64,000 bases of DNA, from NCBI RefSeq assembly GCF_007970185.1, contig NZ_CP042431.1, forward strand, positions 4,588,001 to 4,652,000. Direction: 5' to 3'. The notes beneath the pieces are model-generated. The model ran no database searches and was not told the origin of the DNA. It worked only from the letters and a program-made list of their open reading frames with translations. This DNA comes from Pseudobacter ginsenosidimutans (GTDB lineage: Bacteria; Bacteroidota; Bacteroidia; Chitinophagales; Chitinophagaceae). Position numbers and translations under genes: made by a program. Below are positions 9,448-40,549 of this stretch, piece after piece. Positions within the stretch are counted from its first letter, which is position 1. Each line of letters starts with the position of its first letter.

Positions 9448-9501
9448 GATTGTTGTATGAAATAATTCCTGCCTTATGGCATCAAGCAAGCAATCGGGAT
9501 A

Positions 9502-10143
9502 TTATTGGTGAGTATGTAACTGCGTTTGTTCGTGTGTGTTATTCGTGAAAGAGCTCAGCTCTTCTTCCAGTGAAGGAATAGCAGCAGGTGTTACCACTCC
9601 GTAGAGGAAGAGGTAGAGGGCCTGGCGGAAAACTTCGTCCTTTGAATAATCGTTGGTAAGCCTGGAGGCGAATTCAAAATCCGTAGCGAGGTGCTGCTGC
9701 CAAATGGCGATCACCAGTTGCGGATGCAGGTTGCCACGGAAGATGCCTTCCTGGATGCCGGTTTCCAATGTTCTGATGATACGTGAGCCGATGGTGTTCT
9801 CCATGCTCTTGTTCAGCTCTACCCATTGAACAGGGTAATGCCTGCGCAGGTCTGTAAAGAATACTGGGTTTATCTTCTTGCAATAGTTGAGGACTGTACC
9901 GATATAGCCGAGCAGTTTCCTGAGACTATCAACCGGCTTTTCATCCACAGTCACCATCGCTGCTTCATAATCTGATGAGAGTCTGTTCGCCACTTTTTCC
10001 ACCAGTTCCTGACGGGATACGAAATAGCGGTACAGCGTTTTCTTCGACATGCCCAACCGTGATGCGATGTCGTCCATGGTGAAGGATTGCACTCCCTGAG
10101 TGGTGAACCATTGGTAGGCAGTATCCAGAATTAATTGTTCCAT
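9502..10143 (-). CDS. TetR/AcrR-family transcriptional regulator of the RND operon
   Basis: A regulator of 213 residues. Its N-terminal helix-turn-helix is clear: FTTQGVQSFTMDDIASRLGMSKKTLYRYF within residues 13-42, followed by a divergent ligand-binding domain. It is the first gene of the operon with the efflux channel, adaptor and pump, an arrangement typical of a local repressor that is released by pump substrates. Two 21-bp inverted repeats (10152-10172 and 10192-10212) sit 9 to 70 bp upstream of its start and overlap its putative promoter, suggesting autorepression. It faces a second tetR gene at 10423. Confidence 0.88.
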   Translation of the reverse strand: MEQLILDTAYQWFTTQGVQSFTMDDIASRLGMSKKTLYRYFVSRQELVEKVANRLSSDYEAAMVTVDEKPVDSLRKLLGYIGTVLNYCKKINPVFFTDLRRHYPVQWVELNKSMENTIGSRIIRTLETGIQEGIFRGNLHPQLVIAIWQQHLATDFEFASRLTNDYSKDEVFRQALYLFLYGVVTPAAIPSLEEELSSFTNNTHEQTQLHTHQ

Positions 10144-11055: not shown

Positions 11056-11090
11056 AACAAGGGGCCTTATAAAGGTCCCTTGTTGTTTTA
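11056..11090 (+). terminator. Rho-independent terminator after the second tetR
   Basis: A 13-bp stem (AACAAGGGGCCTT pairing with AAGGTCCCTTGTT, one G-T pair) with a 3-nt loop, followed by a T-rich tail GTTTTATT. Confidence 0.8.
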
Positions 11091-11173: not shown

Positions 11174-11749
11174 ATGTCAATGGATCTGCCATACCCGGAT
11201 GCCAGGTTGCTGGAAATGCTAGTAGAGGGCGACAGGCTTGCATTTGAGACCATCTACCGTAAGTACTGGTTCCCACTTTTTAACTCTGTTTTCAAACGTA
11301 TTAAAGACAAACAAAAGGCGGAAGACCTGGTGCAGGAAGTATTCTTCAAACTGTGGAGGAACAAAGAAAAACTGTCTGTCGACAATCTTGAAGCCTATCT
11401 CAGAACGGCTGCCCGGTATGAAGCCATCAATTATTTATCGCGGACAAAGATCAGCTACCAGTTCTTCGAACCATTTCATGAGATCTTGCAGGACAGGGAC
11501 CAGCCAGACCTTCAGTTATTTTCCAAAGACCTGCTGGACCTGATCCATTCCTTTGCAAAAACACTCCCGGAAAAACGCAGGCAGATCTTCCTGCTGCATA
11601 TCCAATCCAGATTATCCACCAAAGAGATCGCCGAGAAGCTGGGCATTTCACAAAAGACCGTTCAAAACCAGTTGGGAACTGCATTGAACGAGCTGAAGCC
11701 CCGCATCCTTCAATTTGTTGCTGCGCTGATCACCACGCATTATTCCTGA
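11174..11749 (+). CDS. ECF RNA polymerase sigma factor (Bacteroidota FecI-like)
   Basis: The sequence of 191 residues has both sigma-70 regions of ECF factors: region 2 (AFETIYRKYWFPLFNSVF ... KAEDLVQEVFFKLW, residues 25-65) and region 4 (LPEKRRQIFLLHIQSRLSTKEIAEKLGISQKTVQNQL, residues 130-168). It heads a co-directional locus with the FecR anti-sigma factor and a SusC receptor that has an STN domain. In such FecIRA-type systems the receptor signals across the envelope to FecR, which frees the sigma factor to transcribe the transport genes. Confidence 0.92.
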   Translation: MSMDLPYPDARLLEMLVEGDRLAFETIYRKYWFPLFNSVFKRIKDKQKAEDLVQEVFFKLWRNKEKLSVDNLEAYLRTAARYEAINYLSRTKISYQFFEPFHEILQDRDQPDLQLFSKDLLDLIHSFAKTLPEKRRQIFLLHIQSRLSTKEIAEKLGISQKTVQNQLGTALNELKPRILQFVAALITTHYS

Positions 11750-11839
11750 CCTGGAAAATATTTTTTAAATCTTTTGGGAGTTCCTTCCCTGTTTTGTGGC
11801 TATATAAAAGAAGCCTGCGCAGGCAAATAAAATCATGGC

Positions 11840-12973
11840 ATGAAGAAATTACAGCGCTTATTGACACGCTATACGAAAGGTACCGCTTCTCCGGAAGAGA
11901 AGGAGTTTGTGGAGCAATATTATTCGCTTTTCGAGCAGGAGGCGGACCTGGGTATGAGTGAAGGTGAGCGCAAACAGTTGGTGGATGCCAACTGGGAAAA
12001 AATGGAAAACGGGATGAATGAGCCGCAAAGCGGAAAGCTGATCTACATGCTGGCTACCCGCAAGCGCTGGATCGCTGCAGCAGTGATATTCCTGATAGCA
12101 GGCGCGGGCTGGTTCTGGTATGCGGGAACAGGCACGAACACAGATAACCCTGTACAGACTGCTACTGCAGAGGATATTGCACCCGGAAGGAATGGCGCCA
12201 TCCTTACTCTTGATAATGGCAAAGAGATATTGCTCGACAGTTCCGGTAGCGGTGTGATTGCCACTCAACATGGCTCGAAAGTAATATTGAATGATAACGG
12301 CGTGGTATATGCGCCAGAAGAAAAACCAGCTTCAGCAATTGTGTACAATACACTGTCCACGCCCAGAGGCAGGCAATTCCATATCGATTTGCCGGATGGC
12401 ACGTCAGTATGGTTGAACGCAGCCAGCTCCATCAGGTTCCCGGCCAGTTTTACAGGTAATGAAAGAAAGGTTACCATTACCGGAGAGGCATATTTTGAAG
12501 TGGCTGCCAACAAATCGATGCCCTTTGTAGTGGATGTGAATGGAAAGGCAATGATACAGGTGCTCGGTACGGTATTCAATGTAAATGCTTACGAAGATGG
12601 CAAGGGTATTTACACCAGTCTGCTGCAGGGCAGCATCCGGATGAACCATCAGAAGGAATCGTTTACGCTGCTTCCAGGCCAGCAAACGATGATCAGCAGC
12701 AAGGGCATGGAACTTGTTCCCCATGCAGACACAGACATGGCTGTGGCCTGGAAAAATGGAAAATTCCAGTTCAGTTTTACCCCGATAGACGAAATACTCA
12801 GTCAATTCGCCCGGTGGTATGATGTGGATGTGATCTATGAACGCGGTGTTCCTGATCTTGCCTTCACGGGTATGCTCAGACGGGATTACACGCTGAAACA
12901 GGCACTGAGCATTCTTGAGACCATGGGCGTACACTTCAGAACAGAAGGAAGGAAGTTGATAGTGCTACCATAA
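11840..12973 (+). CDS. FecR-family anti-sigma factor
   Basis: The 377-residue product shows an N-terminal cytoplasmic domain that would hold the sigma factor (MKKLQRLLTRYTKGTASPEEKEFVEQ), one membrane segment (residues about 76-93, IAAAVIFLIAGAGWFWYAG), then the periplasmic FecR domain (TPRGRQFHIDLPDGTSVWLNAASSIRFP ... GEAYFEV) and the DUF4974-like C-terminus ending IDEILSQFARWYDV and YTLKQALSILETMGVHF. It follows the sigma gene by 90 bp and precedes susC, the partner receptor whose STN domain should contact it. Confidence 0.93.
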   Translation: MKKLQRLLTRYTKGTASPEEKEFVEQYYSLFEQEADLGMSEGERKQLVDANWEKMENGMNEPQSGKLIYMLATRKRWIAAAVIFLIAGAGWFWYAGTGTNTDNPVQTATAEDIAPGRNGAILTLDNGKEILLDSSGSGVIATQHGSKVILNDNGVVYAPEEKPASAIVYNTLSTPRGRQFHIDLPDGTSVWLNAASSIRFPASFTGNERKVTITGEAYFEVAANKSMPFVVDVNGKAMIQVLGTVFNVNAYEDGKGIYTSLLQGSIRMNHQKESFTLLPGQQTMISSKGMELVPHADTDMAVAWKNGKFQFSFTPIDEILSQFARWYDVDVIYERGVPDLAFTGMLRRDYTLKQALSILETMGVHFRTEGRKLIVLP

Positions 12974-13108
12974 CCTTATCCCGGCTGCTCAAAAAATAAT
13001 TCCAAATCATTGTAAGATCGATGTGCTGTCTGGCAGTTACGGCCAATGCTGACAAGCAGGTGGCGGAGCTATGCTCACGCTCCGACAGTCATCCAACCAA
13101 AACAACTT

Positions 13109-16100
13109 ATGAACAGAATCTTACTACGCAAAAGCCTCAGGACTGTAGACCCGCCAGGGATACAAGTTTTTACAAAGCTCACCAAATGGGGGATCGTCAG
13201 TTTCCTGTTATTGCTGGTACAGTTCGCCCATGCGCAAACCATCAGCCTGCAGGCAAAGAATATCACACTTCAGAAAGTATTCAATGAGATCAGGAAACAA
13301 ACCGGCTATGATGTGTTCTACAATTCCCGTCAGATCGATTCAAGCATCAAAGTAACGGTGAATGCGAAGGCGCAACCTCTTGATGCTTTCATGCAGCAGG
13401 TGCTGCAGGGGCATCCGTTCTCGCATTCCATCATCGGTTCCACTATCCTGGTGCGCAGAGAGGATAAGCCGAAACCCGCATCCCTATTGACGGATCCTAC
13501 TCAAACCGGCGTGCAGGGAGTAGTGCTTGATGAAAAAACGAGAACGCCGCTGCTGGGTGTTACCGTGATGCTGGGGCGCACCAGGAAGGGTACACAGACG
13601 GATGCCATGGGGAAATTCCATATCAGGGAAGTTCAGGACGATGACAGTATTGTTTTTTCCATGGTAGGATATACTTCCATCGTTCGCAGATTTCAGCCGG
13701 AAGTCCGGAACATGATGGTATTACTCCGGCCGGCGGTGAGCGATCTCGATGCGGCAGTAGTACAGGCCTATGGTGTTACCAGTAAAAGATTGTCTACCGG
13801 CAATATCTCCCGTGTGAGTGGTGAAGAGTTGCGCAGGCAACCTGCCATCAATCCGCTTGCTGCCTTGCAGGGAAAGGTGCCGGGCATGACCGCCGTGATC
13901 ACTAACGGTCATCCTTCAGCGCCTGTTAAGCTCGAGATCCGCGGCAGAAGTTCTCTGAACAGTGAATTCTCGGGTGAGCCCCTGTATATTGTTGATGGTG
14001 TGATCAGAACAATACTTGATGGAGCCGGCAGCACGCAGTATGATGTTGGAACCTCTCCGGGATTTGTTCAGGCAGGAGGTTCATTCACTGGCGGGCAAAG
14101 TATCTTCTTTGGAATGAATGCTGAGGATATTGAAAGTATCGAAGTATTGAAAGACGGCGATGCCACTGCTATTTATGGATCGAGGGGCGCCAATGGTGTA
14201 GTGATCATTACTACCAGGAAGGCACAACCGGGAAAGACAACTTTTACCGTCCAGCTGAACCAGGAGTTCACAGATATAGCGCGCTATCCGAAAATGATCG
14301 ACAGGGAAACCTATTTCAATCTCAGGAGGGAAGCACTCCGTAACGACGGCATCGGGCCAACTGAGCAGAATGCACCCGATCTTGTACTCTGGGATACTAC
14401 CAGGTATATCGACTGGAACAGGGAAATCTATCAGACCGGCGCCAATACCAGAGTGATGGCTGCTGCGTCTGGTGGTGACAACAGGAATTCCTTCCGCTTA
14501 TCATCCTCTTATAATACACTGAGAACAATCAATAAGGGGCCAGACAAGAATGGAGTGCTGAATATTAATTTTTCCTACAATCATAAAAGCTCAGATGGCA
14601 AGCTGGATATGGGTTTGACCACTGGTTATATTTATACTTTTACGGAAGCGGCAAGAATGCCTGTTGCAGAGCTTGCTCCCAATGCACCTGCTATTCTCGA
14701 CAGCAATGGAAAGCCCAACTATGCTCCATTCCATGGCCTGGGCAGTATTGCCAGGTATGAGTTCGCATCACTTTTTCAACCTGGCATTACAAAAGTGAAT
14801 TCTTTTACTTCTTCCTTCAATGCAGGATATGCCATTGCTAAAGGTTTATCATTAAGGGTGACTGCCGGTTACAGCAGTATGTCGTCTATTAATGATATAC
14901 TCATTCCACTGGCTTCACTCAGTCCGCTGGAGACCGGACTTACCGGTTCAGTGTTGATGGGAAGATCCACTTCATCTAACTGGAATGCAGATCCAACGAT
15001 CAATTACGGCACCAACCTGGGAAGAGGTCAATTGGATGTAATGGTAGGAACAAGTATCCAGCAAAGAAAGACCATCTACATGAGTCTCTATGGAGCCGGA
15101 TATACCAATGATAACCTGCTCGGCAGTATTGCTGACGCAGCAGTGAAAGATATCGTGGAAGGAACAAACCTCTACCGGTACAACGCAGTGTTTGGCCGGA
15201 TCAATTTCAGGTGGGACAGAAAATATATCCTGAATCTCAATGGCAGGCGCGATGGTTCATCGCGGTTCGGGCCTGGAAAGCAATTTGGGAATTTCGGCTC
15301 AATTGGCTTTGCCTGGGTTCTGTCTGAAGAAGAATGGTGGAAGAAAAATATTCCCTCCTTTCTCAATTTCTTCAAACTGCGAGGCAGTTACGGACTCTCA
15401 GGAAACGATAATGTCAGTGAATACCAGTACCTGTCGCAATGGGGAACACAGCTTGGAAGCAGCAGTTCATCCAAGTTGTATGATTACAACGGTGAGCGGC
15501 CTTATGCCCCGATGCATGCGGTCAACCAGTTGTTTCAATGGGAAACGGTTACGAAACAGGAGCTGGGAACGGAGCTTGAATTGTTTAACAAGCTGATGCT
15601 GTCTGTTTCCTGGTACCGCCAGGTATGTGACAATCAACTGACCAGTCAGCCGGTGGGCTCATATACGGGTTTCAGTTTCGTGGTAACCAATTCTCCCGCA
15701 AAGGTTGAAAACAGAGGTGTTGAGATACAATTGGGAGGCGACATCATCAAACGAAAAAATTTCACCTGGAGAGGAGACTTCAATATTGCATTCAACAGGA
15801 ACAGGTTGCTGGCTTATCCAAACCTCGACAAATCACGGCATGCCAGTCGTTACAGGATCGGTGAATCCCTGAACGTGAATTTCCTGTACCACTACATGGG
15901 TGTGGATCCTCTTACAGGGGAATACAGATTTGAAGATTACAACAAAGATGGCTCCCTGAGCAACGGTAATGGCAGACCTGGTGGATTGGGTAACGACCGT
16001 TATGTAGTCTTTGATAAAACGCCCAAATTCAACGGGGGATTCAGCAGTTCAGTTGCCTGGAAAAATCTTTCTTTTTCCCTGGGTTTCGCCTTCGCGAAAA

Positions 16101-16486
16101 TGTTGATGGTTGATCCTTTGCTGTCCGTCAACCCCGGCGCTTTCGGAGAGGTGTATATTCCTGACCAGCTGCTCAGGAACTACTGGAAGAAACCGGGTGA
16201 TATAGCAGCTTATGGAAAAGCATCAACACAAAGTATCGGAATTATCAGCAACTCGGATGCAGGCATCATCGATGGCTCCTCCCTGCAACTCAATAATATT
16301 TCCGTTGCCTGGGGATTGCCTCAGAAATTACTGAAACAAGCAGGGTTTCAAAGTGCCAGCGTATCGGTCAATGCCAACAATATCTACACCTTCTCCAGGT
16401 ACAAAGGATTGGGTGGTTATGGATTGGCTACCGTATCCCAACCGGTACAAAGGACATTTGCTTTGGTTCTTCAGTTCAACTTCTAA
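13109..16486 (+). CDS. SusC/RagA-type TonB-linked outer-membrane transporter with STN domain
   Basis: ATG 13109 is preferred (1125 residues) over the longer frame from 13046, because the signal segment (WGIVSFLLLLVQFAHAQ) follows naturally. Domain order: STN signalling domain (ISLQAKNITLQKVFNEIRKQTGYDVFYNS..., first about 90 mature residues), a carboxypeptidase-like beta-sandwich (GVQGVVLDEKTRTPLLGVTVMLG), the plug (ISRVSGEELRRQPAINPLAALQGKVPGM ... LYIVDGV ... IESIEVLKDGDATAIYGSRGANGVVIITT) and a long 22-strand barrel. The STN domain marks it as a transducer that signals to the FecR protein upstream. Its substrate is unknown; no glycosidase or protease gene follows, so the ligand may not be a polysaccharide. 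Confidence 0.94.
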   Translation: MNRILLRKSLRTVDPPGIQVFTKLTKWGIVSFLLLLVQFAHAQTISLQAKNITLQKVFNEIRKQTGYDVFYNSRQIDSSIKVTVNAKAQPLDAFMQQVLQGHPFSHSIIGSTILVRREDKPKPASLLTDPTQTGVQGVVLDEKTRTPLLGVTVMLGRTRKGTQTDAMGKFHIREVQDDDSIVFSMVGYTSIVRRFQPEVRNMMVLLRPAVSDLDAAVVQAYGVTSKRLSTGNISRVSGEELRRQPAINPLAALQGKVPGMTAVITNGHPSAPVKLEIRGRSSLNSEFSGEPLYIVDGVIRTILDGAGSTQYDVGTSPGFVQAGGSFTGGQSIFFGMNAEDIESIEVLKDGDATAIYGSRGANGVVIITTRKAQPGKTTFTVQLNQEFTDIARYPKMIDRETYFNLRREALRNDGIGPTEQNAPDLVLWDTTRYIDWNREIYQTGANTRVMAAASGGDNRNSFRLSSSYNTLRTINKGPDKNGVLNINFSYNHKSSDGKLDMGLTTGYIYTFTEAARMPVAELAPNAPAILDSNGKPNYAPFHGLGSIARYEFASLFQPGITKVNSFTSSFNAGYAIAKGLSLRVTAGYSSMSSINDILIPLASLSPLETGLTGSVLMGRSTSSNWNADPTINYGTNLGRGQLDVMVGTSIQQRKTIYMSLYGAGYTNDNLLGSIADAAVKDIVEGTNLYRYNAVFGRINFRWDRKYILNLNGRRDGSSRFGPGKQFGNFGSIGFAWVLSEEEWWKKNIPSFLNFFKLRGSYGLSGNDNVSEYQYLSQWGTQLGSSSSSKLYDYNGERPYAPMHAVNQLFQWETVTKQELGTELELFNKLMLSVSWYRQVCDNQLTSQPVGSYTGFSFVVTNSPAKVENRGVEIQLGGDIIKRKNFTWRGDFNIAFNRNRLLAYPNLDKSRHASRYRIGESLNVNFLYHYMGVDPLTGEYRFEDYNKDGSLSNGNGRPGGLGNDRYVVFDKTPKFNGGFSSSVAWKNLSFSLGFAFAKMLMVDPLLSVNPGAFGEVYIPDQLLRNYWKKPGDIAAYGKASTQSIGIISNSDAGIIDGSSLQLNNISVAWGLPQKLLKQAGFQSASVSVNANNIYTFSRYKGLGGYGLATVSQPVQRTFALVLQFNF

Positions 16487-16497
16487 ACCCAACGGAT

Positions 16498-17985
16498 ATG
16501 CGAAAGAAATTAATAAACGAAAAGATTTACTTGTTGATCCTGCTGTTGCCGCTATCGGTAGCCTGCAAAAAACTGGTGACGATACCCCCGCCAAAGCACA
16601 GTATTTCCACTGAACAGATGTTTGAAACAGATAACCAGGCGGAAGGTGCTTTGGCTGGCATCTACTCCGTGATGATCAACGGTGCCAGTACTACACAAAC
16701 GCAAAGCGCTGCGTTGAATAGCTGGTCTGCCGGCCTCGTAAGCCTGCTGGGCAGCCTGTCTGGTGGTGATTATTATAACGCAAACCTGAGCGGCGACCTT
16801 GACTTTTATGAACATGCCACCAACAATCTCAAAATACAGGGAAGGGCCCGCAGCGATGCCATGTGGACTACCGCTTACAGCAGTATCTATGGAGCTAACT
16901 CGATTGTGGAAGGCGTAGCTGCTTCCACCTCTTCCAAACTCAGCGCCAAAGCCAGGAAAGAACTGACTGCCGAAGCAAAACTGGTAAGGGCGATGGCCTA
17001 TTTCTATCTCGTGAATTTTTATGGGGATGTACCCCTGGTATTGACGGTGAATTTCCACGAGACCATTGCCATGGAAAAAACACCGGCTGCAAAAGTGTAC
17101 GATCAGGTGATCAGCGATCTGAAAGATGCCTGGCAAAACCTGCGCGATGATTTTTCAACCGGCAAGGGAGAACGCGTAAGACCGAACAAGTGGGCTGCTG
17201 CTGCATTGCTGTCCAGGGTTTATCTCTACACGAAGAATTACACCGGCGCCTATGAAATGGCCAGTGAAGTGATCCGCCAGCAACAAATATTCGAGCTGGA
17301 AACAGATCTGAACAAAAGTTTTCTGGCAACCAGCAAAGAAGCCATCTGGCAACTGAAACAAACCACCCAGAATACCAGGATGGGGAATGCCACTCCTTAT
17401 GGAATGCAAACAGTGACATCTTCTGTGAGGATCGCCAATTTCAGACTCACCGATCAGTTGCTGAATACATTCGAAGCCGGAGATAAGCGACGGGATAACT
17501 GGGTAGCACAAACGAATAACTCGGAGGCAGGCCAGGCGCCTGTCATTTCCTGGTTCCCCGCTAAATACAAACTGGGCAATCACAATTTTACCAGTACCAG
17601 TCCCAAAGAATATTTTATGGTGCTCCGCCTCGCTGAATTGTTCCTGGTGCGCGCAGAAGCGCAGGCCCATGGCGCAGGAGATGGTTTGAGCGCAGCTATC
17701 GATGATCTCAATGTGATCCGCCACAGGGCAGGGCTGGAGGATCTGCCGGAATCCTTATCCAACGATGAATTGTTCCTCGCCATCGAAAAGGAAAGACAAC
17801 TGGAGCTCTTTGCCGAATGGGGCCACCGTTGGTTCGATCTCAAACGTACCGGGCGCGCCACTGTGGTATTACCGGAGATTCCCATGAAAGCGCCCTGGAG
17901 AGGCGATTTCCAGTTGCTTTATCCCATCCCTGATAAGGAAATTCAGGAAAATGGAATGCTGATTCAAAACCCGGGTTATTTCTGA
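16498..17985 (+). CDS. SusD/RagB-type surface lipoprotein
   Basis: The 495-residue product is a lipoprotein with signal LLILLLPLSVAC, Cys23 being the likely lipidation site. It has the SusD signature blocks: DNQAEGALAGIYS, the TPR-like region LTAEAKLVRAMAYFYLVNFYGDVPLV, and the C-terminal YFMVLRLAELFLVRAEAQAHGAGDGLSAAIDDLNVIRHRAGL plus LAIEKERQLELFAEWGHRWFDLKRTG. SusD proteins cap the SusC barrel and deliver ligand. The start is 11 bp after the susC stop. Confidence 0.94.
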   Translation: MRKKLINEKIYLLILLLPLSVACKKLVTIPPPKHSISTEQMFETDNQAEGALAGIYSVMINGASTTQTQSAALNSWSAGLVSLLGSLSGGDYYNANLSGDLDFYEHATNNLKIQGRARSDAMWTTAYSSIYGANSIVEGVAASTSSKLSAKARKELTAEAKLVRAMAYFYLVNFYGDVPLVLTVNFHETIAMEKTPAAKVYDQVISDLKDAWQNLRDDFSTGKGERVRPNKWAAAALLSRVYLYTKNYTGAYEMASEVIRQQQIFELETDLNKSFLATSKEAIWQLKQTTQNTRMGNATPYGMQTVTSSVRIANFRLTDQLLNTFEAGDKRRDNWVAQTNNSEAGQAPVISWFPAKYKLGNHNFTSTSPKEYFMVLRLAELFLVRAEAQAHGAGDGLSAAIDDLNVIRHRAGLEDLPESLSNDELFLAIEKERQLELFAEWGHRWFDLKRTGRATVVLPEIPMKAPWRGDFQLLYPIPDKEIQENGMLIQNPGYF

Positions 17986-18003
17986 TCACCAAAATCAAAT
18001 TGC

Positions 18004-18786
18004 ATGTTCACAATTTCAAACAAGCCCAATATCGCTTCCTGGTTAACAGCACCAATGATAGCCTGCGTCTTGTTGCTGGCTGGTTGCGCCAAAGAACGTA
18101 TGCCCAAAGCCACAGGTACGCTCGATATTATTCATACGATGGTAGATGCAGGAAAGATAAGACCGAGTTTCAGGGATGGAAGTCCCGCGTTGTTCCGGTA
18201 TACTTTCGATATCAACTATAATCTTTTTAATACGAACAATAACAGGTTCGGATACTATGAAGGCGATACCCGTCTCAGGCTTTACGTGATGCCGGATACT
18301 ACTGAAAAAGACCCGCCTCTCCTGGATCTTCGTCTGCACCTTCCCGAAGGGTCCATACAAACCCTGGTACTCACAGGTCATAAAGACCAGCCTGATACCA
18401 TGTTGATCCGGGACAATATCCCCTGGTTCAATCCGAATGACAGTGTAATGGCCTTCAGGTTCATCAATTGTTCGCCTGGCAGCAATCCGGTGAATATACG
18501 GATCAAAGACGGTGACATCATTACGGAGTTCAGCCAGTTGAGCTACAAACAACGCTCCAATTTCAAAACCTTTCCTGTGTTATACAATACCAGGGACTAT
18601 GTATTCGAAGCCTGGGACGCCACTACCAATGTATTGCTTGCCACCTACAAAACGAATGGCATGGACAACGGCAATCAGGAGGCCTTTCGCTACAGGAGTT
18701 ATACGATGTACCTGGGCGGTGTGGCAGGAGCAACAGGCGTGAATGCGCCGAAGCTGTTTGTGCAATTTCATTATCAGGGCCAGTAA
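18004..18786 (+). CDS. Putative lipoprotein, beta-rich (DUF4397-like appearance)
   Basis: An exported lipoprotein of 260 residues: hydrophobic signal ending in CVLLLAGC with Cys28 as the likely modified residue. The segment VMAFRFINCSPGSNPVNIRIKDGDIITEFSQLSYKQRSNFKTFPV resembles the beta-sandwich repeats of DUF4397-type proteins, but the match is from memory of the pattern. It follows susD by 18 bp and precedes the ABC ATPase by 27 bp, so it is probably a surface-exposed accessory of the SusCD pair. No catalytic motif seen. Confidence 0.6.
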   Translation: MFTISNKPNIASWLTAPMIACVLLLAGCAKERMPKATGTLDIIHTMVDAGKIRPSFRDGSPALFRYTFDINYNLFNTNNNRFGYYEGDTRLRLYVMPDTTEKDPPLLDLRLHLPEGSIQTLVLTGHKDQPDTMLIRDNIPWFNPNDSVMAFRFINCSPGSNPVNIRIKDGDIITEFSQLSYKQRSNFKTFPVLYNTRDYVFEAWDATTNVLLATYKTNGMDNGNQEAFRYRSYTMYLGGVAGATGVNAPKLFVQFHYQGQ

Positions 18787-18813
18787 CCTTATACTATTTC
18801 AACTCAAAAAATT

Positions 18814-19740
18814 ATGAGTACAATCTTAAGAACAGAAAATCTTTCCCACCGTTACGGCAGTTCCTGGGCCATCCGGGACATCAACCTGGAGATTGGGCAA
18901 CACGGGGTGATCGGCTTGCTGGGCTCCAACGGGGCAGGAAAATCAACCACGATGAATATCATCTGTGGTGTGCTGAATCAAACGCAGGGGAATGTATATA
19001 TCGATGGGACCAATATCCGGAAAGAGCCTGAAAAAGCAAAAATGAGCATCGGCTTCCTGCCACAGAATCCTCCGGTGTATACAGACCTTACCGTGGATGA
19101 ATACCTGCATTATGCAGCTGAATTGAGAATGGTGCCTGACAGGCAGATCAAAAAAGCAGTGGAAGAAGCCAAGGAGAAATGTGGTATCGCTCATTTCAGT
19201 TCAAGGCTGGTAGGCAATCTTTCCGGCGGCTACCGCCAGCGGGTAGGTATTGCACAGGCCATCATCCACAAGCCAAGACTGGTGGTGATGGACGAACCTA
19301 CCAACGGGCTGGATCCCAACCAACTCATAGAAGCGCGTAAGCTTATCCGTGATATCGCTACTGATCATACCGTATTATTATCTTCCCATATCCTTTCCGA
19401 GATCCACCTGTTGTGTAAAGAGGTGATCATGATCGAAGGCGGCAGGATCATCTTCTCAGACAGCATGGACGCTTTCAACAACTATGCACAACCGAACAGT
19501 CTCCTGGTGAAAATGGAAAACCCTCCGCCATTGCAGGCCTTGCACCAGATCAGCGGCGTTACCAAAACCGAGCAGGTTTCTGAAAAGCAGGTCAGGATCT
19601 TCTTTACAGGCGATCAATCCATCTCGGAAAGACTGATCGCGGCCAGTGTTCAGCACGAATGGCGTATCCGCGAGATCAGTCTCGATAAAAGCCTGCTGGA
19701 TGATATCTTCAAGCAACTGTCCTCCCAATCCCTCCAATAA
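18814..19740 (+). CDS. ABC transporter ATP-binding protein (GldA-like)
   Basis: The 308-residue product has a complete ATPase: Walker A GSNGAGKS at 37-44, Q-loop in GFLPQNPPVYTDLTV, signature LSGGYRQR, Walker B LVVMDEP with TNGLD, and the switch histidine in SSHILSE. A C-terminal extension of about 90 residues (from SDSMDAFNNY) is typical of GldA-type ATPases that drive ABC-2 permeases of gliding or export. Partner permease is the GldF/GldG-like fusion at 19838. It continues the SusCD operon without a terminator. Confidence 0.9.
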   Translation: MSTILRTENLSHRYGSSWAIRDINLEIGQHGVIGLLGSNGAGKSTTMNIICGVLNQTQGNVYIDGTNIRKEPEKAKMSIGFLPQNPPVYTDLTVDEYLHYAAELRMVPDRQIKKAVEEAKEKCGIAHFSSRLVGNLSGGYRQRVGIAQAIIHKPRLVVMDEPTNGLDPNQLIEARKLIRDIATDHTVLLSSHILSEIHLLCKEVIMIEGGRIIFSDSMDAFNNYAQPNSLLVKMENPPPLQALHQISGVTKTEQVSEKQVRIFFTGDQSISERLIAASVQHEWRIREISLDKSLLDDIFKQLSSQSLQ

Positions 19741-19749
19741 AGTATAGCC

Positions 19750-19827
19750 ATGAAACAAAGCATAATAGATATCTCACTCAAGGTGATGCATATGCGGAGT
19801 TCCCATCGGCCTGGAAAAAACAAATAA
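19750..19827 (+). CDS. Mini-ORF of 25 residues, possible remnant of a deleted permease gene
   Basis: ATG at 19750 and TAA at 19825-19827 encode a 25-residue basic peptide starting MKQSIIDISLKVMHM. It lies in the 97-bp gap between the ABC ATPase and the GldF-GldG fusion. The first residues look like the cytoplasmic N-terminus of an ABC-2 membrane protein, with the rest missing. It may be translated as a leader that couples the two genes, be the scar of an in-frame deletion, or be chance. Confidence 0.3.
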   Translation: MKQSIIDISLKVMHMRSSHRPGKNK

Positions 19828-19837
19828 AAAATTACGG

Positions 19838-22162
19838 ATGAAAATGATATTCAAAATCGCGCGGACCGAACTGCGCAACCTCTTCTATTCCCCTGTGGCC
19901 TGGTTCCTGAGCCTGATATTTCTAATCATGTGCGCGGTTTTATTCACAGGAGTGCTGGAACCGTTGGCCAAAGCGCAGGACATGGCCTTGAAGAATATGC
20001 CGAAATTCAAGGATTTCGGTGGATCGCTGACCAGTACCATCTTCATAAAAGGAGGATTGTTCGACACTGTGCTCAATAATCTTTATCTCTTCATTCCCTT
20101 GCTGACAATGGGCGTCATCAGCAGGGAAATGAATAATGGCACTGTGAAGCTTTTATACTCATCGCCGGTGAAGGTGCGGCAGATCGTGCTGGGAAAATAC
20201 CTGGCCATCATGCTCTATAATGTACTGCTGCTGCTATTGCTGGGCATTTTCATCGTGTCCGGGCTTTTCAATATCAAGTCGCCGGACTATGGTCTGCTGC
20301 TGGCTGGCTGCCTGGGTTTTTACCTGGTGATCTGTGCTTTCACTGCCTTCGGCATGTTCATGTCCAGCCTCTCGAACTACCAGGTAGTATCTGCACTCGC
20401 CACCTTCATGGTGATCTTTGTGCTGTCGAAGATTGGTGGGCTATGGCAGAAATATGATTTCGTGAGAGACCTCACATATTTCCTGAGCCTCGAAGGAAGG
20501 GCAGGAACTTTTTTGGATGGATTGATCACCACAAGGGATGTATCCTATTTCATCCTGATCGTAGGGATGTTCATCGCATTCACGATCCTCAAACTGAAAT
20601 TTTCCAGGATGTTATTGCCCTGGTATAAAAAAGCAGCTGCCTATACCGCCGTTTTCATGATTGTGCTTGCGCTGGGTTACCTCACATCCAGGCCGGGATA
20701 TGTTGGTTATTGGGACACTACTGCGCGGAAGCTGAACACTATTCATCCCAGGACACAGCAGGTGATGGCCAGCCTTGGCGATGAACCGGTGGAAGTGACT
20801 TTGTACACCAATCTGATTGGCGGTGGAGCCGGGAGAGCGTTGCCCGAGAACAGGCAGGAATACGTGTGGAAAGTATGGGACCCTTATGTTCGATTCAAGC
20901 CGGATATCAATCTGAAATACGTTTTGTATTATGATCAGAAGGATGGTGACAGCACTCAGTATAAAAGATATCCGGGCAAGAGTTTGAAAGAGATAGCGGA
21001 GCAGGCAAGTGAATTATCCGGGTATCCGATGAACAAGTTCATGCCTCCTTCAGCCATCCGCAAAATGATGGATTTACAACCGGAGGACCTTCGCGCAGTG
21101 ATGCAACTGAAATACAAAGGAAGAACTGTTTTCCTCAGAACCTATGATGATCCCATATTCTGGCCGAATGAAGAGCATTTTGCCGCTGCCTTCAAATGGC
21201 TTGCGGAAGGTAAGGGGCCGAAGATCTATTTCACTTCCGCAGACCTGGAAAGAAGCATATATAAAAAAGGAGAGCGTGAATATTATCATCTCACCCTCGG
21301 TAAGCTAAGCAGAAATGCCCTGATCAATCATGGTTACATGATAGATACACTCTCCCTTGATGAGCAGGAAGTGCCTGCCGATGCAGATGCCCTGGTAGTA
21401 GCCGATCCGAAAACTGAATTGAGCGCCCTCAGCCAATCGAGGATCAGCCATTACCTGCAACGTGGCGGAAATATGGTCTTTGCAGGTGAGCCCGGTAAAC
21501 AGGAAATGCTGAATCCTGTTTTGAAACCGCTCGGTGTTCAACTGGGAAAAGGAACTGTAGTGGAGATCACGAAAGATGAAATGCCGCATATGGTAGTGCC
21601 CTATATCACCTGGCCGGCCACTGACCTGGCGGATGATGGAAGATTGCTGGCACAGAAAGTAAAGCTGGCCAGGCAACTGGATACACTGAGGGCATTGCAT
21701 CCGGGAGTGGTGAACCTGGAAATTGCTGACAGCGGTTTTTCTGTGAAGCACCTGTTGGTGACCAAAGACAGGAATGCCTGGGTGAAAGCAGGAAAACTGG
21801 TAACAGATTCCGCTACGCCGGTATTTTCTGCACAGGAAGGCGATTATACAATCGATTCCGTTTCAACACTCATCTCACTGAACCGGAAACTGGGAACAAA
21901 AGATCAGCGGATCATCATAGCAGGCGATGCTGATTTTCTCAGCAGGATCAGAGGCCAGAACGGTTTTCTCTGGAATGCTTTCAATGGCTGGATGAACCAT
22001 AACAGTTTCCCCATTTATGTACCGCGCAAAGAACCGCTGGACGTGCTGCTCACCATCGGACCCAAGCCCGCCAAACTGATGCAGGTGATCTATGTGTGGA
22101 TACTGCCCGGACTATTGCTGCTGACCGGAATCATTTTGCTGGTGAGGCGTAAAAGAAAATAA
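19838..22162 (+). CDS. GldF-GldG fusion: ABC-2 permease joined to a GldG-type periplasmic auxiliary domain
   Basis: The 774-residue product has an N-terminal ABC-2 permease part of about 260 residues with six membrane segments (ARTELRNLFYSPVAWFLSLIFLIMC ... MGVISREMNNGTVKLLYSSPV ...), followed by a seventh segment (AAYTAVFMIVLALGYL), a large periplasmic GldG/ABC_transp_aux-type region (about residues 295-740, including VEVTLYTNLIGGGAG and ALVVADPKTELSALSQSRISHYLQRGGNMVFAGEP), and a final membrane helix (IYVWILPGLLLLTGIILLV) with a basic tail. GldF and GldG are normally separate proteins needed with GldA for gliding. Here they form one chain beside SusCD, so a role in envelope assembly or surface display seems as likely as motility. 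Confidence 0.82.
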   Translation: MKMIFKIARTELRNLFYSPVAWFLSLIFLIMCAVLFTGVLEPLAKAQDMALKNMPKFKDFGGSLTSTIFIKGGLFDTVLNNLYLFIPLLTMGVISREMNNGTVKLLYSSPVKVRQIVLGKYLAIMLYNVLLLLLLGIFIVSGLFNIKSPDYGLLLAGCLGFYLVICAFTAFGMFMSSLSNYQVVSALATFMVIFVLSKIGGLWQKYDFVRDLTYFLSLEGRAGTFLDGLITTRDVSYFILIVGMFIAFTILKLKFSRMLLPWYKKAAAYTAVFMIVLALGYLTSRPGYVGYWDTTARKLNTIHPRTQQVMASLGDEPVEVTLYTNLIGGGAGRALPENRQEYVWKVWDPYVRFKPDINLKYVLYYDQKDGDSTQYKRYPGKSLKEIAEQASELSGYPMNKFMPPSAIRKMMDLQPEDLRAVMQLKYKGRTVFLRTYDDPIFWPNEEHFAAAFKWLAEGKGPKIYFTSADLERSIYKKGEREYYHLTLGKLSRNALINHGYMIDTLSLDEQEVPADADALVVADPKTELSALSQSRISHYLQRGGNMVFAGEPGKQEMLNPVLKPLGVQLGKGTVVEITKDEMPHMVVPYITWPATDLADDGRLLAQKVKLARQLDTLRALHPGVVNLEIADSGFSVKHLLVTKDRNAWVKAGKLVTDSATPVFSAQEGDYTIDSVSTLISLNRKLGTKDQRIIIAGDADFLSRIRGQNGFLWNAFNGWMNHNSFPIYVPRKEPLDVLLTIGPKPAKLMQVIYVWILPGLLLLTGIILLVRRKRK

Positions 22163-22168
22163 ACGATC

Positions 22169-24787
22169 ATGTACTTATTGACTGATGAACAAACCATCGA
22201 AGACCTGCGGATCTTCGGAAAACGTGATGCAGGCGGGATCTTCGATATATACAACAATACGCATACGCGCGGCGCGGAAAATATTTTGCAGGAAATGTTC
22301 CGTCAACCTTTGAACAACAGGGAGGCGATCAATACCAGGAGCAATATCATTGCACAGTTTGCGAAACATCAACTGGCATTTCCCTTTGAAGCATCTTCCT
22401 TCGATATGGCTGAAAAATACCTGCGGGCAGAAGAGCAATCTGCCAATGGTAACCGCGCTTCCAGCCTGAGTGAAAAGGAAACAGGCAACGGTGTGCAGGC
22501 CGTGATCACATTGCTGCAAACCCTGCAGGAGCTGATGAAAAGTCATGCTATTGCTGAAACCATGGCCTATGCTTCCGAGCGCAATGCCATTTGTTTATTA
22601 CTGGATGATCCTGTATTGGAACCTGTGCTGAAGCAAAAAGGAAAACTTTCTTATTCAGCTATCACTGCCTATGATCTCCTGTTCAGAACAAGGGAAAAAC
22701 AAAGGATCCTGAAACTGCTTGGTCATATCTATTTTCTCGATGTATACATTTCTGTTGCAAGTTTAGCCCTGAAACGCAATTTCATATTTCCTGCAGCTAT
22801 AGGAGAGGAGGATGCCCTCTCCCTGCAGGGAGTGTATCATCCTTCATTGAAAGAACCCATTCCGAATGATATTGTGATGGATGCATCACAGAACATGGTG
22901 TTCCTCACCGGGGCCAATATGGCGGGTAAGTCTACTTTCCTGCGATCATTGAGCACTGCGCTTTATATCGCGCATATGGGCTTCCCGGTAGCCGCTGCAA
23001 AAATGGAATTCCCTGTGATGGATGGCATCTTCACCACCATCAATCTGCCTGACAACCTGGGCATCGGCGCCAGTCATTTCTATGCCGAAGTGTTACGGGT
23101 AAAACAGGTTACCAATGCACTCGCTGCCGGTAAAAGATTGTATGTGGTATTTGATGAACTGTTCCGCGGCACCAACGTGAAAGATGCGCATGAAGCCACA
23201 GTGGCCATTGCTGCTGCATTTGCTGCGAAGAAAGACAGTTACTTCGTGATCTCATCACATATCGTGGAAGCTGGGGAGGAACTGGGCCGCGAGCCGGGTA
23301 TCGTTTTCTATTATCTGCCCACCATTATGAAAGGTCATGAACCCACCTATACTTACAGGTTACAGGAAGGCATCACGGAAGACAGACATGGCATGCTGAT
23401 CATCCGGAATGAAGGTATCCTTGAAAAACTGGAAAAGGGTACAAAACGTGCAGGCTCGGCCGTTATCAATGGCTCCTTCCATGCAGACCGGCAAACGGTG
23501 GATGAACTCAATCTGCTGGGCAAATTCAGGCATGGCTCCGTGTATCATTTATTCGGACAGGTGAAGACGAGAGGCGCTGAACAATTACTGGATGAGATGT
23601 TCCGTCATCCGCTTACCGATCCAACAGCCATCAATAACCGTAGCGCCATCTTCAAATTTTTCCAGGAAGCGGGTTTGCAATTTCCCTTCGATGTACAGCA
23701 GCTGACCCTCATGCGTGAATTCCTTGACACGGGCAGCGGCCAGTCGGCAGGGACGGTATTGCTGAATACGATGCTGCGGAAAATGTTGGCAGGGCTGACA
23801 AGGGATGAACGATACAAAAAGTCTGTGCAGGGGCTGCAGGCCACCATCGTTACCCTGAATAAATGTTTTCAGTTCCTGCCATCACTCAATAAGATCCAAG
23901 GGGGATTTGCTGCACGCGTGCAGTCCATCTCTGATCTGTTGCACCACCCTCAATTGGAAAAATTACGCAATACAGATATTTATGCAGCCCTGTCTGTCCG
24001 CAGCCTGGCGCATTTCGATCATTTGCTGAAACGCAGTTTTGCTACCGAAATGGAAGATGTACTCCGCTTCATTCATGAACTTGACCTGTTCATCAGCGTT
24101 AGTGATATGGCGCGTACAAGAGGCTTCACTTATGCTAAAGCCTTACCGGCGAACCAGAATTGTTTTCGTGTAAAGAATCTGTCGCATCCCTGCCTCCCCA
24201 ACGCTATTGGTAATGATATCGTGCTGGAGGAGAACAGCAATGTGCTTTTTCTAACCGGGGCCAATATGGCGGGGAAATCCACGCTGATGAAGAGTATCGG
24301 TATTGGCCTTTACCTGGGGCATATGGGCTTTCCTGTTTCGGTCACCGATATGGAGTTCTCTGTGCGTGAAGGACTGTATTCTTCCATCAATGTGGCTGAC
24401 AATATCGGACTGGGCTATAGTCATTTCTATGCCGAAGTGGTAAGGGTAAAACAGGCAGCCGATGCGGCCAGCAGTGGCAAGCGGTTATTCATGATGTTCG
24501 ATGAGTTGTTCAAAGGAACGAATGTGAAAGATGCATTCGATGGCACTCTATCGGTTACACAGGCATTTGCTGGTTATCCTGATTGTTTGTTCATCGTTTC
24601 AACACATATCATTGAAGTGGGCGAGCTATTGAAGAACAGGAAAAATGTACGATTCTCCTTTATGCCAACTGTGATGGACGGCCATCGTCCCCGGTATACC
24701 TACAGGATGCAGCAGGGCATCACGGAAGACCGGCAGGGCATGATGATCATCCGGAACGAAGGACTACTGGAACAATTGCATGCATAA
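22169..24787 (+). CDS. Tandem MutS-type ATPase (two MutS core+ATPase units in one chain)
   Basis: The 872-residue chain is an internal duplication: residues 1-425 and 446-872 align throughout. Each half begins with a MutS core-like segment (IFGKRDAGGIFDIYNNTHTRGAENIL... and LLGKFRHGSVYHLFGQVKTRGAEQLL...) and ends in a MutS-type ATPase: Walker A GANMAGKS at 248-255 and 697-704, the SHFYAEV loop, Walker B with FDELFRGTNVKDA and FDELFKGTNVKDA, and SSHIVE or STHIIE at the H-loop. Both ATP sites look intact, offset by 449 residues. The mismatch-recognition and connector domains of true MutS are absent, so classical repair is unlikely. MutS works as a dimer; this protein should fold as its own pseudo-dimer. 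It starts 6 bp after the GldF-GldG stop in the SusCD operon. Confidence 0.85.
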   Translation: MYLLTDEQTIEDLRIFGKRDAGGIFDIYNNTHTRGAENILQEMFRQPLNNREAINTRSNIIAQFAKHQLAFPFEASSFDMAEKYLRAEEQSANGNRASSLSEKETGNGVQAVITLLQTLQELMKSHAIAETMAYASERNAICLLLDDPVLEPVLKQKGKLSYSAITAYDLLFRTREKQRILKLLGHIYFLDVYISVASLALKRNFIFPAAIGEEDALSLQGVYHPSLKEPIPNDIVMDASQNMVFLTGANMAGKSTFLRSLSTALYIAHMGFPVAAAKMEFPVMDGIFTTINLPDNLGIGASHFYAEVLRVKQVTNALAAGKRLYVVFDELFRGTNVKDAHEATVAIAAAFAAKKDSYFVISSHIVEAGEELGREPGIVFYYLPTIMKGHEPTYTYRLQEGITEDRHGMLIIRNEGILEKLEKGTKRAGSAVINGSFHADRQTVDELNLLGKFRHGSVYHLFGQVKTRGAEQLLDEMFRHPLTDPTAINNRSAIFKFFQEAGLQFPFDVQQLTLMREFLDTGSGQSAGTVLLNTMLRKMLAGLTRDERYKKSVQGLQATIVTLNKCFQFLPSLNKIQGGFAARVQSISDLLHHPQLEKLRNTDIYAALSVRSLAHFDHLLKRSFATEMEDVLRFIHELDLFISVSDMARTRGFTYAKALPANQNCFRVKNLSHPCLPNAIGNDIVLEENSNVLFLTGANMAGKSTLMKSIGIGLYLGHMGFPVSVTDMEFSVREGLYSSINVADNIGLGYSHFYAEVVRVKQAADAASSGKRLFMMFDELFKGTNVKDAFDGTLSVTQAFAGYPDCLFIVSTHIIEVGELLKNRKNVRFSFMPTVMDGHRPRYTYRMQQGITEDRQGMMIIRNEGLLEQLHA

Positions 24788-24826
24788 AGTAAAAGAGGCT
24801 TATACGAGCCTCTTTTACTTTATGCA
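24781..24826. terminator. Strong bidirectional terminator closing the SusCD/MutS locus
   Basis: A perfect 20-bp inverted repeat (24781-24800 with 24807-24826) around a 6-nt loop TATACG. It includes the stop codon of the tandem MutS gene and has A/T tracts on both sides of the GC core, so it can serve the convergent TonB-receptor gene (stop at 24845) as well. Confidence 0.85.
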
Positions 24827-24844
24827 TCTGCGATGATTAAACGC

Positions 24845-27800
24845 TTAGTTGTTGAAGATATACCTCAGACCTAACTGTATGCCCCAGGTGCTGTTGGTGG
24901 TGTAAGCCGCCTGGTAAGCCTGCTTGGGCGCATTGGGATCGAAAGTGAATTTTGGATTGTTGGGATTGAAAGATTCATTGCCTGAATTGTTAGATTCTGC
25001 TGAACTTGTTTTAGGCGTTGGCTTGCCTACGATACCCGCATCCTGGAAGGTTCCGAATGTGTATTGGTAGCGATAGCCCCAGTTGCTGTTGAGCAGGTTC
25101 AGCAGGTTGAGTACATCCACGCTCACCTGGATGGTATGTTTCTTTGTACCGGTACGGAACACGAAATCCTGCATCACTCGAAGATCGAGCGTATGCTGCC
25201 AGGGCAGGAGCGCACCGTATTTCTCCATCATCTGGCCTTTATGTTTACGCAGGTACTTGTCGTTTTCGATGAAGGCGAAGAAGGCATCGCTCTGTTGCTT
25301 TGCTGTGAAAGTTCCCGCCCTTGTGATGAAGCCTTCCACAAACTGGATCTCGGATGGATCCCTTGGGATGTACAGCATATCATTGGTCTGGTCATCCCCA
25401 TTGATATCAGCACCATACCTGAAAGTATATCTTTCCTGCGGCTGTGCAGAGTAGAATACCCCAAAGGTAGTGGCCATCGTTTTGTTCCTGTATTCAAGAC
25501 GGTAAGAACCATGTGCTACGATCCTGTGCGGCACTGCAAAGTTGCTGGCGCCCAGCTCAGGTACGTTGGGGTTGATGGAGATATTGTTGGTTGTCCATCC
25601 GCTGCCAGACTGGTCTGAGCTGCCGATAGCTGCTTCCTGGGCCAGTGTGTAAGTGTAAGCCAGTCCGCCTTCCCAGTTCTGTGAAAAGGATTTTTGAACG
25701 GCGGCAGTCAATGCAAGGCTGTAGCCTTTGTTTGTATTGTCCAGAACGATCATCTGGTTCATGAAAGAGTTCAGCCTGTTCGTATAAATTGGACGCTTGT
25801 CGCCGGGCGTGTTCAGTTTTCCTTTTTCCGCACCGAGGTTGGCATTCCTGAAATAAACGTTGTTCACCATTTTGGTATAGAGCGCTTCTAACGTAAATGT
25901 GTAGTTGCCTTCGAATTTTTTATCTACTGCCAGGTTGGATCTCCATACCTGCGGCATTTTGAAATCTTTGGCAATAGCGCTATAATTGGAACCGCTGGGA
26001 ATGGTTGTACCAACCTCAGGTGGGTTTGGTGGAATATGAGCGGTTCTGTCTGTGTTGTATTCGATATCCGCCAGCTGTGAGCTGTTGGCCTGGAAGGTAG
26101 CGCGCATGATGCCGTTATCACCTACCTGGTTCACCAGCCAGATGAATGGAATACGGCCTGTGAACAAACCGGTTCCGCCTCTTACTATTGTTTGTTTATC
26201 TCCATCCACATCATAGCTGAAACCTACGCGGGGAGATACCAGTACTTTCTTGCTGGGCCATTTGCTTACATCGAATTGTTCGTTGTTGCCATCGGGATCC
26301 TTGAACACCACTTTTTCCAGTGCGGGGTTGCGTGGAGGATCGTATGGATAGTTCGGTTGATCGAAGCGGACTCCATAAGTGAGTTTGAAATTCTTTGAAA
26401 CGGTCCAGATATCCTGTACATAATAACCGATCTGTGCAAACTTCGCTTCAGGCACCCTGATGCCAAGACGGTTATTCGGATCATAGGCAACAGCAAATAC
26501 AGTAGGAGCATTGCCATTGATGAACGCATCCACAGAAGCGTAACGGTAATAAGAAGGACCGCCTGCGCTGGTGAAGGAGTTGGCGAATTTCATGTATTCA
26601 TAGCTCACACCTCCCGTAACAGTATGTTTTCCCAGGTTGAAAGTGATATTGTTGGCGATATTGAGCGCCTTATCGGAGATCTCATTCCTGTAAGAGAAAA
26701 GATCGGTTCCGAATGAAATGTATACATTGTTCTCGTTGCCTGCCTGCATGATATCAACAAAGGAGGCTGTTGAGTTGGGCACGCGCTTCAACTCATTATC
26801 TGTATAAGACACCAGCAACTGGTTGGAGATCCTGCTGCTGAAATTGGAGTTGAGCTCAGCCACACCAGACCATACTTTCACATTGTTCTTGAAATTGGAG
26901 CCATTGTATGCCATGCCACCCGTGGTACCGCCTCTGCGGCTGTTATTGATACGGGGCACATTGGAAATGCCTGTTACGCTGGATGCGTTGATCTGGTCGT
27001 CATCATCTGTGTTGGATTGTGTGTAACGCAGGGTGAGACGGTGTTTGCTGCTGATATTCCAGTCTAACCTCGCCAGGAATTTCTTGTTCTCTGTTTCAAA
27101 ATCATATCCCTGGTAGATTCCTGGATCATATTGATAATTGTCCATCAGGTGTTTCCTGAGCCTGTCAAGATCGGATGCGAGAACGGCTGTTACGTTGGGG
27201 CCTTTATCGTCATCATTTTTCTTGGCCACAAATGTCTGGCCGGGCTGTGTTCTGTTTTCCATTTCGTAGTTCACGAAGAAGAACAGTTTGTCTTTGATGA
27301 TGGGCCCGCCGATGCTTGCGCCGAATGTTTTGTTGGAACGTTTGGGATTGTCGATGGTTTGTTCAAGTACTTTCTTTCCTGTAAAATCCTGGTTCCTGTA
27401 GAATCCGTACACGGTGCCGTACCAGTTGTTGGTACCTCTCCTGGTAACGGCATTGATACCGCCTCCGATGAAGCCTGCCTGGCGAACGTCAAAGGGGGAG
27501 ATGTTCACCTGCACCTGGTCGATGGCATCTACGGAGATGGCAGATACTGCGCCGCCGGGGATCATACCGTCGCCGCTTCTTCCGAAGTTGTTGTTGAACA
27601 GTGAGCCGTCGATGGTGATATTGTTGAACCTTTTGTTCATGCCTGCAAAGCCGTTATCATTCTGTTGCGGTGTGATACGCGTGAGATTGGTAAGGCTGCG
27701 TGTGAGGTTGGGAAGGTTCTGCACGGCCCGGTTGCTGATATTGGTGGAAGCGCCTGTTTTTTCAGTAGCGCCTCTTCGGGCAGCCGACACCGTTACTGCC

Positions 27801-37747: not shown

Positions 37748-37923
37748 GTTATGGTCTGGTTTGAATATATATAAACACTTATACATATTATTTTCCTCCC
37801 TAAAATTATTAAAAGAAAACATTCAAATGCGCAGGACCGACATGGTAATTTGATATTCTTTTATTACTTTCATTATACACAAGTAATTCCTGGTTAGACA
37901 CCAAAGAACTACGAGCACATGAG

Positions 37924-37964
37924 AAAAAAGAATATCCCCGCCATGAGCGGGGATGTTCTTTTTT
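37924..37964. terminator. Terminator-like hairpin between divergent genes
   Basis: An 18-bp stem: eight GC-rich pairs ATCCCCGC/GCGGGGAT around a CATGA loop, extended by ten mostly A-T pairs and followed by TTTTTT on the plus strand (and T-rich on the minus strand). It sits between two genes that point away from each other (ggt and the M14 peptidase), so it ends neither. It could be an attenuator in the leader of the gene at 38006, the end of an unseen small RNA, or the leftover of a lost gene. Confidence 0.55.
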
Positions 37965-38005
37965 AGGAAGTTATTTCTATTTTCACGGCTCATACTCTTT
38001 TCAAT

Positions 38006-40537: not shown

Positions 40538-40549
40538 GCACATCACCTT

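Follow-up and report, generated by a model that had tools for sequence, protein, structure and literature searches.

A putatively FecI/FecR-controlled SusC-SusD operon family with an ABC-GldFG transporter and a MutS-fold pair in Pseudobacter ginsenosidimutans

Among the described systems of Bacteroidota, the SusC-SusD loci controlled by FecI/FecR gather a sigma factor, a FecR protein, an STN-bearing SusC, a SusD and a lipoprotein in one unit. The same set opens the locus described here, which lies at 11174-24787 of a 64-kb window (the whole stretch analysed, positions 4588001-4652000 of the single-contig 7.80-Mb genome of Pseudobacter ginsenosidimutans) and consists of eight open reading frames (ORFs) on the + strand, running from an extracytoplasmic function (ECF) sigma factor to a double MutS-like protein (Table 1). 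The direction and the families of the eight genes are those claimed in the original prediction, since ORFs and profiles agree with it. In contrast to the described loci, the family to which this locus belongs has no glycan enzymes, adds an ATP-binding cassette (ABC) ATPase with a fused GldF-GldG protein (ABC-GldFG) and a putative MutS heterodimer, and reaches about 55 copies in one genome. SusC scores above its family cut-off and SusD is adjacent to it, as expected of a SusC/SusD uptake locus, and the ECF sigma factor, FecR and STN receptor adjoin one another as in FecI/FecR/STN signalling genes. The reading favoured here, to which a probability of about one half is given, is that of a self-regulated uptake operon family with peptides as cargo, in which the MutS pair would act as a clamp on a protein partner.

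By analogy, the Fus system would offer the closest described logic. Fus is a protease-associated import system, in the description of which SusD and MutS are not mentioned in the main text, and it has in common with relatives of the locus a cluster of a TonB-dependent transporter, an M16 peptidase and an inner-membrane transporter (PMC6793856). However, the outer transporter is SusC-SusD here and FusA there, GldFG and MutS have no counterpart in Fus, and no M16 peptidase is present in this copy, so that the window locus itself is not a Fus-like cluster.

The gliding transporter GldA/GldF/GldG shares an ABC ATPase, an ABC-2 permease and an ABC_transp_aux protein with the locus, whose F and G parts are fused and tied to SusCD. 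While the sequence kinship of the ATPase and the permease with GldA and GldF might suggest a further transporter for gliding or type IX secretion, this is considered very improbable, as both proteins fall below the curated equivalog cut-offs (GldA, Table 1; GldF 73.6 against 288.5), true gldF and gldG occur as separate genes elsewhere in the genome, and 55 sigma-controlled copies go together with SusCD. The kinship with gliding GldA/F/G that had been proposed is therefore not supported.

For the MutS part, the closest described proteins are MutS2 and the MSH2-MSH6/MSH3 heterodimers. MutS2, whose ATPase splits stalled ribosomes and thus provides a MutS-type ATPase that acts on a protein-RNA machine, has the same core/lever and ABC-type ATPase without domains I and II (PMC10897456). 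Unlike MutS2, for which a non-DNA task is thereby known, the window pair has no detected Smr domain, would form an obligate a/b pair and carries the Walker A motif GANMAGKS. The MSH heterodimers likewise comprise two related MutS subunits, one of each kind and both ATPases, whereas the window pair lacks the DNA-reading domains and sits inside a transport operon. No paper with MutS, SusC and SusD plus GldG or Chitinophaga was found in the open-licence literature of PubMed Central, which is sparse in subscription papers and preprints, in line with the earlier claim of an undescribed combination.

Copies, relatives and origin of the gene set

Six-frame searches of the genome found the MutS ATPase domain 117 times, nearly always in pairs about 1.3 kb apart. 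When the ORFs at each place were labelled by comparison with the window's own proteins, 55 loci were found to have SusC, ABC, GldFG and MutS, with SusD recognised in all but one and an adjacent sigma/FecR pair in nearly all. The lipoprotein type of the window occurs in about half of the copies, the rest having DUF4843 with PKD_2 or two further lipoprotein types. Together the copies span 812,653 bp (10.4% of the genome), which means that one operon family without a found description takes up a tenth of it. Their sequences indicate that they are diverged paralogues of one locus, about 55 in number, and a few frameshifted ones may be pseudogenes. ABC_transp_aux was matched 87 times in the genome, and only one of these matches is a separate GldG.

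One extra copy has the MutS pair in front, in the order mutSa-mutSb-sig-fecR-susC-(degenerate susD)-DUF4843-PKD-ABC-gldFG, with the DUF4843 and PKD labels resting on size and position; as it still holds ABC and GldFG, the gene set is kept despite the changed order. Three further loci have the core without MutS, two of them intact and one with a broken ABC gene. Across the genus, 116, 53, 34, 26, 12 and 9 MutS_V matches per genome were counted. With the best 15 matches per genome scored, the usual number is 3-4 in Chitinophagaceae (196 genomes) and 2-4 in Sphingobacteriaceae (201 genomes), where the maximum is 11; family counts being mostly 2-4, this genome is an extreme case.

The copies also vary in their additions. 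A second ECF sigma gene lies between the lipoprotein and ABC genes in ten of them (L050, L027, L052, L053, L055, L058, L060, L061, L063, L064) and was confirmed at L050:10152-10859 as Sigma70_r2 plus r4_2, and many have a second fused GldFG before or after the MutS pair (L026, L029, L039, L175; L020, L021, L042, L044; others). In five sister genomes, the window SusD has no orthologue with an identity above 53%; the locus L100, considered as an orthologue of the window locus, was ruled out by a SusC identity of 42% and by unlike downstream genes.

Outside this genome, a scan of named genomes with MutS as query gave 80 loci in two bacterial orders, from Chitinophaga, Pseudoflavitalea, Niabella, Niastella, Longitalea, Pedobacter, Mucilaginibacter, Sphingobacterium and others, whose canonical status was set by a fixed rule. 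The arrangement was canonical in 69 of the 80 and permuted, with the MutS pair in front, in five; three loci lie on contigs too short to judge, and in another three ABC-GldFG-MutS is present but the upstream set was recognised only in part. Because MutS was the query, these counts tell what accompanies MutS and not the reverse. The combination, whose gene neighbourhood had been put forward as the check, is thus not confined to one strain, and the linkage conserved across two orders, together with the same set kept in permuted order, argues for one inherited system, as had been proposed. A chance neighbourhood of unrelated genes, for which nothing speaks beyond the odd gene mixture, is refuted by the same observations and by an order kept about 55 times in a single genome.

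When GldFG was used as query, it was found in 11 of 392 genomes across the phylum, and a high-scoring MutS pair in three. One genus of another family contributes six loci of the form FecR-SusC-SusD-ABC-GldFG-M16 without MutS, with a sigma gene ahead of FecR wherever the stretch reaches, and three Sphingobacteriaceae loci are likewise without MutS. Since a MutS-free core exists in another family, the MutS part was most likely added later to an older import locus (sigma-FecR-SusC-SusD-ABC-GldFG, usually with M16), between gldFG and the peptidase. Two arrangements of separate interest are a Sphingobacteriaceae permutation without MutS, sig-ABC-gldFG-fecR-susC-susD (L204:7983-17999), and a Band 7/SPFH protein with a SHOCT domain directly 3' of the MutS pair in Pseudoflavitalea rhizosphaerae (L106:12945-14042).

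The MutS pair

In nearly all operons, subunits a and b each have their own gene of about 440 amino acids (aa). In the tree, subunit a forms a single clade (124 of 124, support 99) with no b inside it; a is marked by FDE[LM]FRGTN in 122 of 124 and b by FDELFKGTN in 124 of 124, and the Walker A motif reads GANMAGKS or GANMGGKS in all subunits. Membership of the MutS superfamily is indicated by a PF00488 score of 168.5 bits. The Walker A, Walker B and signature motifs are intact in nearly every one of the 248 subunits, and intact ATPase motifs had been claimed for this locus. The Pfam search of the window ORF returned just two MutS_III plus MutS_V units, without MutS_I or MutS_II, and no Smr match; its scores stay below the cut-offs of mismatch repair MutS (PRK05399, 224.5 against 480) and of mutS2 (TIGR01069, 130.2 against 400). 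The absence of the mismatch domain and the presence of two units in one ORF were thus rightly predicted, but the notion of a double MutS was corrected to that of a putative heterodimer, normally encoded by two genes.

In the window fusion, neither the stop codon of a nor the start codon of b is left in comparison with L049 and L100, and a single sequencing error would therefore not produce it. Fusions of a and b, with the halves assigned from an alignment of fused MutS proteins only, also occur in other distinct clades (L014 with its counterparts L180-L182, Pedobacter, Sediminibacterium). The presence of one of each subunit in every operon and the repeated fusion suggest that a and b form an obligate heterodimer, which is fused in the window.

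The pair is far from MutS1 of the same genome (96 bits, compared with >385 for its ATPase halves). In the model of the ORF (predicted local distance difference test score, pLDDT, 81; predicted template modelling score, pTM, 0.67), each half matches the core and ATPase of MutS, MSH2 and MutS2, some structural alignments spanning both halves. DNA reading by the pair is unlikely, because the model matches E. coli MutS 265-773 only (Z 33.9) and has a lever-clamp stretch with about 80 residues fewer than that of the genome's MutS1. Action of the pair on DNA, for example in controlling recombination between copies, would suit the MutS ATPase fold and the many near copies with shuffled heads, yet it is judged improbable in view of the missing mismatch and connector domains and the shortened lever-clamp, as well as of the fact that every copy has its own pair and that genomes with few copies keep the pair. 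If the favoured reading of a clamp on a protein partner is true, it would give the MutS fold a second task away from DNA, MutS2 having provided the first, and would explain the "mismatch repair MutS"-like genes that stand beside susD in many Bacteroidota.

Other MutS-like proteins were seen as well. A lone relative of the pair, 437 aa long (about 250-340 bits), occurs widely in Chitinophagaceae (L013:3663-4976, L071-L085); in L013 its neighbours are an amidohydrolase, a peptidase M1 and a Mg-chelatase gene. L016:13403-15187 encodes a separate 594-aa MutS-like protein with Walker A GSNMSGKT outside a transport operon.

Signalling heads, cargo and proposed working

Co-variation was measured as the correlation of pairwise identities among this genome's copies. 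The plug and barrel of SusC, SusD, ABC, GldFG and MutS a and b form a body that diverges jointly (barrel-SusD r=0.93, ABC-mutSa r=0.81, barrel-mutSa r=0.56), and sigma and FecR do not follow it. The split runs within SusC, between STN and plug: STN correlates with FecR (r=0.52, p=0.001), against 0.01 for STN-barrel and 0.06 for barrel-FecR. Between L056 and L058, the plugs are 94% and the MutS subunits 91-92% identical, against 27% for STN, 37% for FecR and 21% for sigma. As STN tracks FecR and the barrel tracks SusD, and given the contrast between L056 and L058, the comparison indicates that the signalling chain is a real functional unit, exchanged or replaced apart from the body. The sigma sequences are near saturation (mean 26%), and hence only STN-FecR is a firm result, which bears out the sigma/FecR/STN chain of the original prediction. 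The about 55 matched importer/sensor pairs, with heads and bodies recombined, provide a natural set for the study of ligand specificity and sigma insulation.

Direct coupling of MutS to ABC was also considered, from a MutS-ABC partial correlation of 0.69-0.72 given GldF and a MutS-GldF value of about 0 given ABC, although gldFG sits between them. These values are reproduced nearly exactly by one-factor common descent with ABC as the least noisy member, and they were not used as evidence.

With regard to the cargo, M16 peptidases with the HxxEH motif stand at the operon end in Pedobacter, Mucilaginibacter, Chitinophaga, the MutS-free loci and two loci of this genome (L014 and L018), and S41 peptidases do so in Chitinophaga. 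DUF4369-TlpA thioredoxins with CxxC recur at the operon end as well, and in Niabella between mutSa and mutSb. The statement that there is no peptidase consequently holds for this copy but not for sibling copies and relatives. The AlphaFold2 model of the lipoprotein (pLDDT 90.7) is closest in fold to the extracellular domain of PepT2/PepT1 (PepT2: Z 15.5, 184 residues, root-mean-square deviation 3.5, 12% identity), the next unrelated fold having Z 10.6, and the mammalian PepT extracellular domain is reported to bind trypsin (PMC4597091). Peptidases and thioredoxin in relatives and the PepT-like fold, each weak alone, taken together favour peptides over glycans, and the best guess is that the cargo is probably peptides. 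An ordinary glycan-uptake locus resembling a polysaccharide utilisation locus, with its enzymes elsewhere, would agree with SusC and SusD as the classic glycan pair and with SusC/SusD homologues as nearest solved relatives, but is decidedly unlikely, since no glycosidase was seen in the locus or the scanned neighbours and the recurrent added enzymes are peptidases and thioredoxins. Among the eight genes, Pfam/NCBIfam profiles found no carbohydrate-active enzyme, so that the locus does not qualify as a polysaccharide utilisation locus.

In the proposed working of the uptake operon, SusD and the lipoprotein would capture a ligand, most likely peptides or protein fragments, on the cell surface, and the STN domain would report its passage through SusC to FecR, which would free the sigma factor and thereby raise the expression of that one operon. 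Cargo in the periplasm would be trimmed, in sibling loci by the M16 or S41 peptidase and in some with a thioredoxin, and moved by ABC-GldFG. In the cytoplasm, the MutS heterodimer would use nucleotides to clamp a protein partner and not DNA, the ABC ATPase and the cargo being the most plausible partners. With multiple copies, receptors for different ligands could be turned on independently of one another. In its most specific form, that of a trans-envelope import machine whose MutS-fold a/b heterodimer would have departed from DNA repair to serve as part of an ABC transporter, with about 55 separately switched versions in one cell, the proposal is put forward only tentatively, at less than even odds; what ABC-GldFG does (import, export or energy transmission) and what the MutS pair does are both our inference.

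Several points weigh against the uptake reading. ABC-2 transporters more commonly export than import. The co-variation of MutS and ABC is due to shared descent and gives no sign of the MutS pair touching the ABC transporter, and MutS is not indispensable, because it is missing from the core in three loci of this genome. In addition, the window copy has no peptidase of its own, and the PepT match, being one of a fold of two immunoglobulin (Ig)-like domains at 12% identity, may not bear on function. The most serious of the alternatives, though still unlikely, is detoxification, in which ABC-GldFG would expel toxic peptides or the like, with SusC/STN mainly as sensor, the peptidases destroying the toxin and MutS aiding the pump. 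It draws on the ABC-2 type of the permease, on the one private signalling head per copy and on ATPase scores of 177-190 bits against models of lantibiotic protection and DrrA, although these fall far short of the respective cut-offs; however, SusC-SusD with a plug and a TonB-type barrel is an import device, needless for a resistance locus, and the barrel-SusD correlation is as expected for joint ligand capture.

Gene layout and neighbouring features

The domains of the window proteins were assigned with Pfam/NCBIfam profiles at curated cut-offs (Table 1). The real start of SusC is probably the ATG at about 13109. From susC onward the gaps in this locus are 11, 18, 27, 97 and 6 bp, and the claim of mostly 6-30 bp after susC holds for 11, 18, 27 and 6 but not for the junction of ABC and gldFG, which is the longest. 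In the 52 complete copies of this genome, most junction types between susC and the second mutS have median gaps of about 10-40 bp, whereas the medians for sigma-fecR and fecR-susC are 58 and 127 bp, a pattern that fits one long unit from susC behind a separately placed sigma-fecR pair.

Table 1. Positions of the genes and the terminal stem of the locus in the window
Feature	Position	Strand	Evidence and remarks
ECF sigma factor, 191 aa	11174..11749	+	TIGR02985 132.7 bits against cut-off 126.4; Sigma70_r2/r4_2
FecR-type anti-sigma factor, 377 aa	11840..12973	+	FecR and FecR_C
SusC with STN (residues 88-138), CarbopepD, Plug and barrel	13046..16486	+	TIGR04056 614 bits against cut-off 368
SusD, 495 aa	16498..17985	+	SusD_RagB 101.5 against 23.1; SusD-like_3
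Lipoprotein, LAGC lipobox, two Ig-like domains	18004..18786	+	DUF4397 just below cut-off
ABC ATPase, GldA-like, below GldA cut-off	18814..19740	+	ABC_tran; TIGR03522 267.2 bits against 402.6
Fused ABC-2 permease (GldF-like) and GldG-like ABC_transp_aux, 774 aa	19838..22162	+	Pfam/NCBIfam domains
MutS-like subunit a, N-terminal half of 872-aa ORF	22169..23470	+	MutS_III and MutS_V, FDELFRGTN
MutS-like subunit b, C-terminal half of 872-aa ORF	23473..24787	+	FDELFKGTN; separate gene in nearly all relatives
Perfect 20-bp stem with 8-base loop	24780..24827	.	Common to convergent gene 24845-28150

The 20-bp stem announced for the end of the locus was found as a perfect inverted repeat, with the arms ATGCATAAAGTAAAAGAGGC (24780-24799) and its exact complement (24808-24827), and is likely a two-way terminator. 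A PADLOC search gave no convincing whole-protein anti-phage match, the matches being mainly to P-loops or partial ATPase stretches. A 13-bp stem with T-rich sequence after it (11056-11084) separates the sigma gene from a TetR gene and is probably the terminator of the upstream gene.

The window further contains two AcrB-type resistance-nodulation-division pumps (3772-6948 and 49469-52585), the first of which adjoins a TolC-like ORF (8059-9489, by inspection) and the TetR gene (9502-10143). At 36035-43146, a gamma-glutamyltranspeptidase is found next to an M14 carboxypeptidase-like protein and a PIG-L deacetylase.

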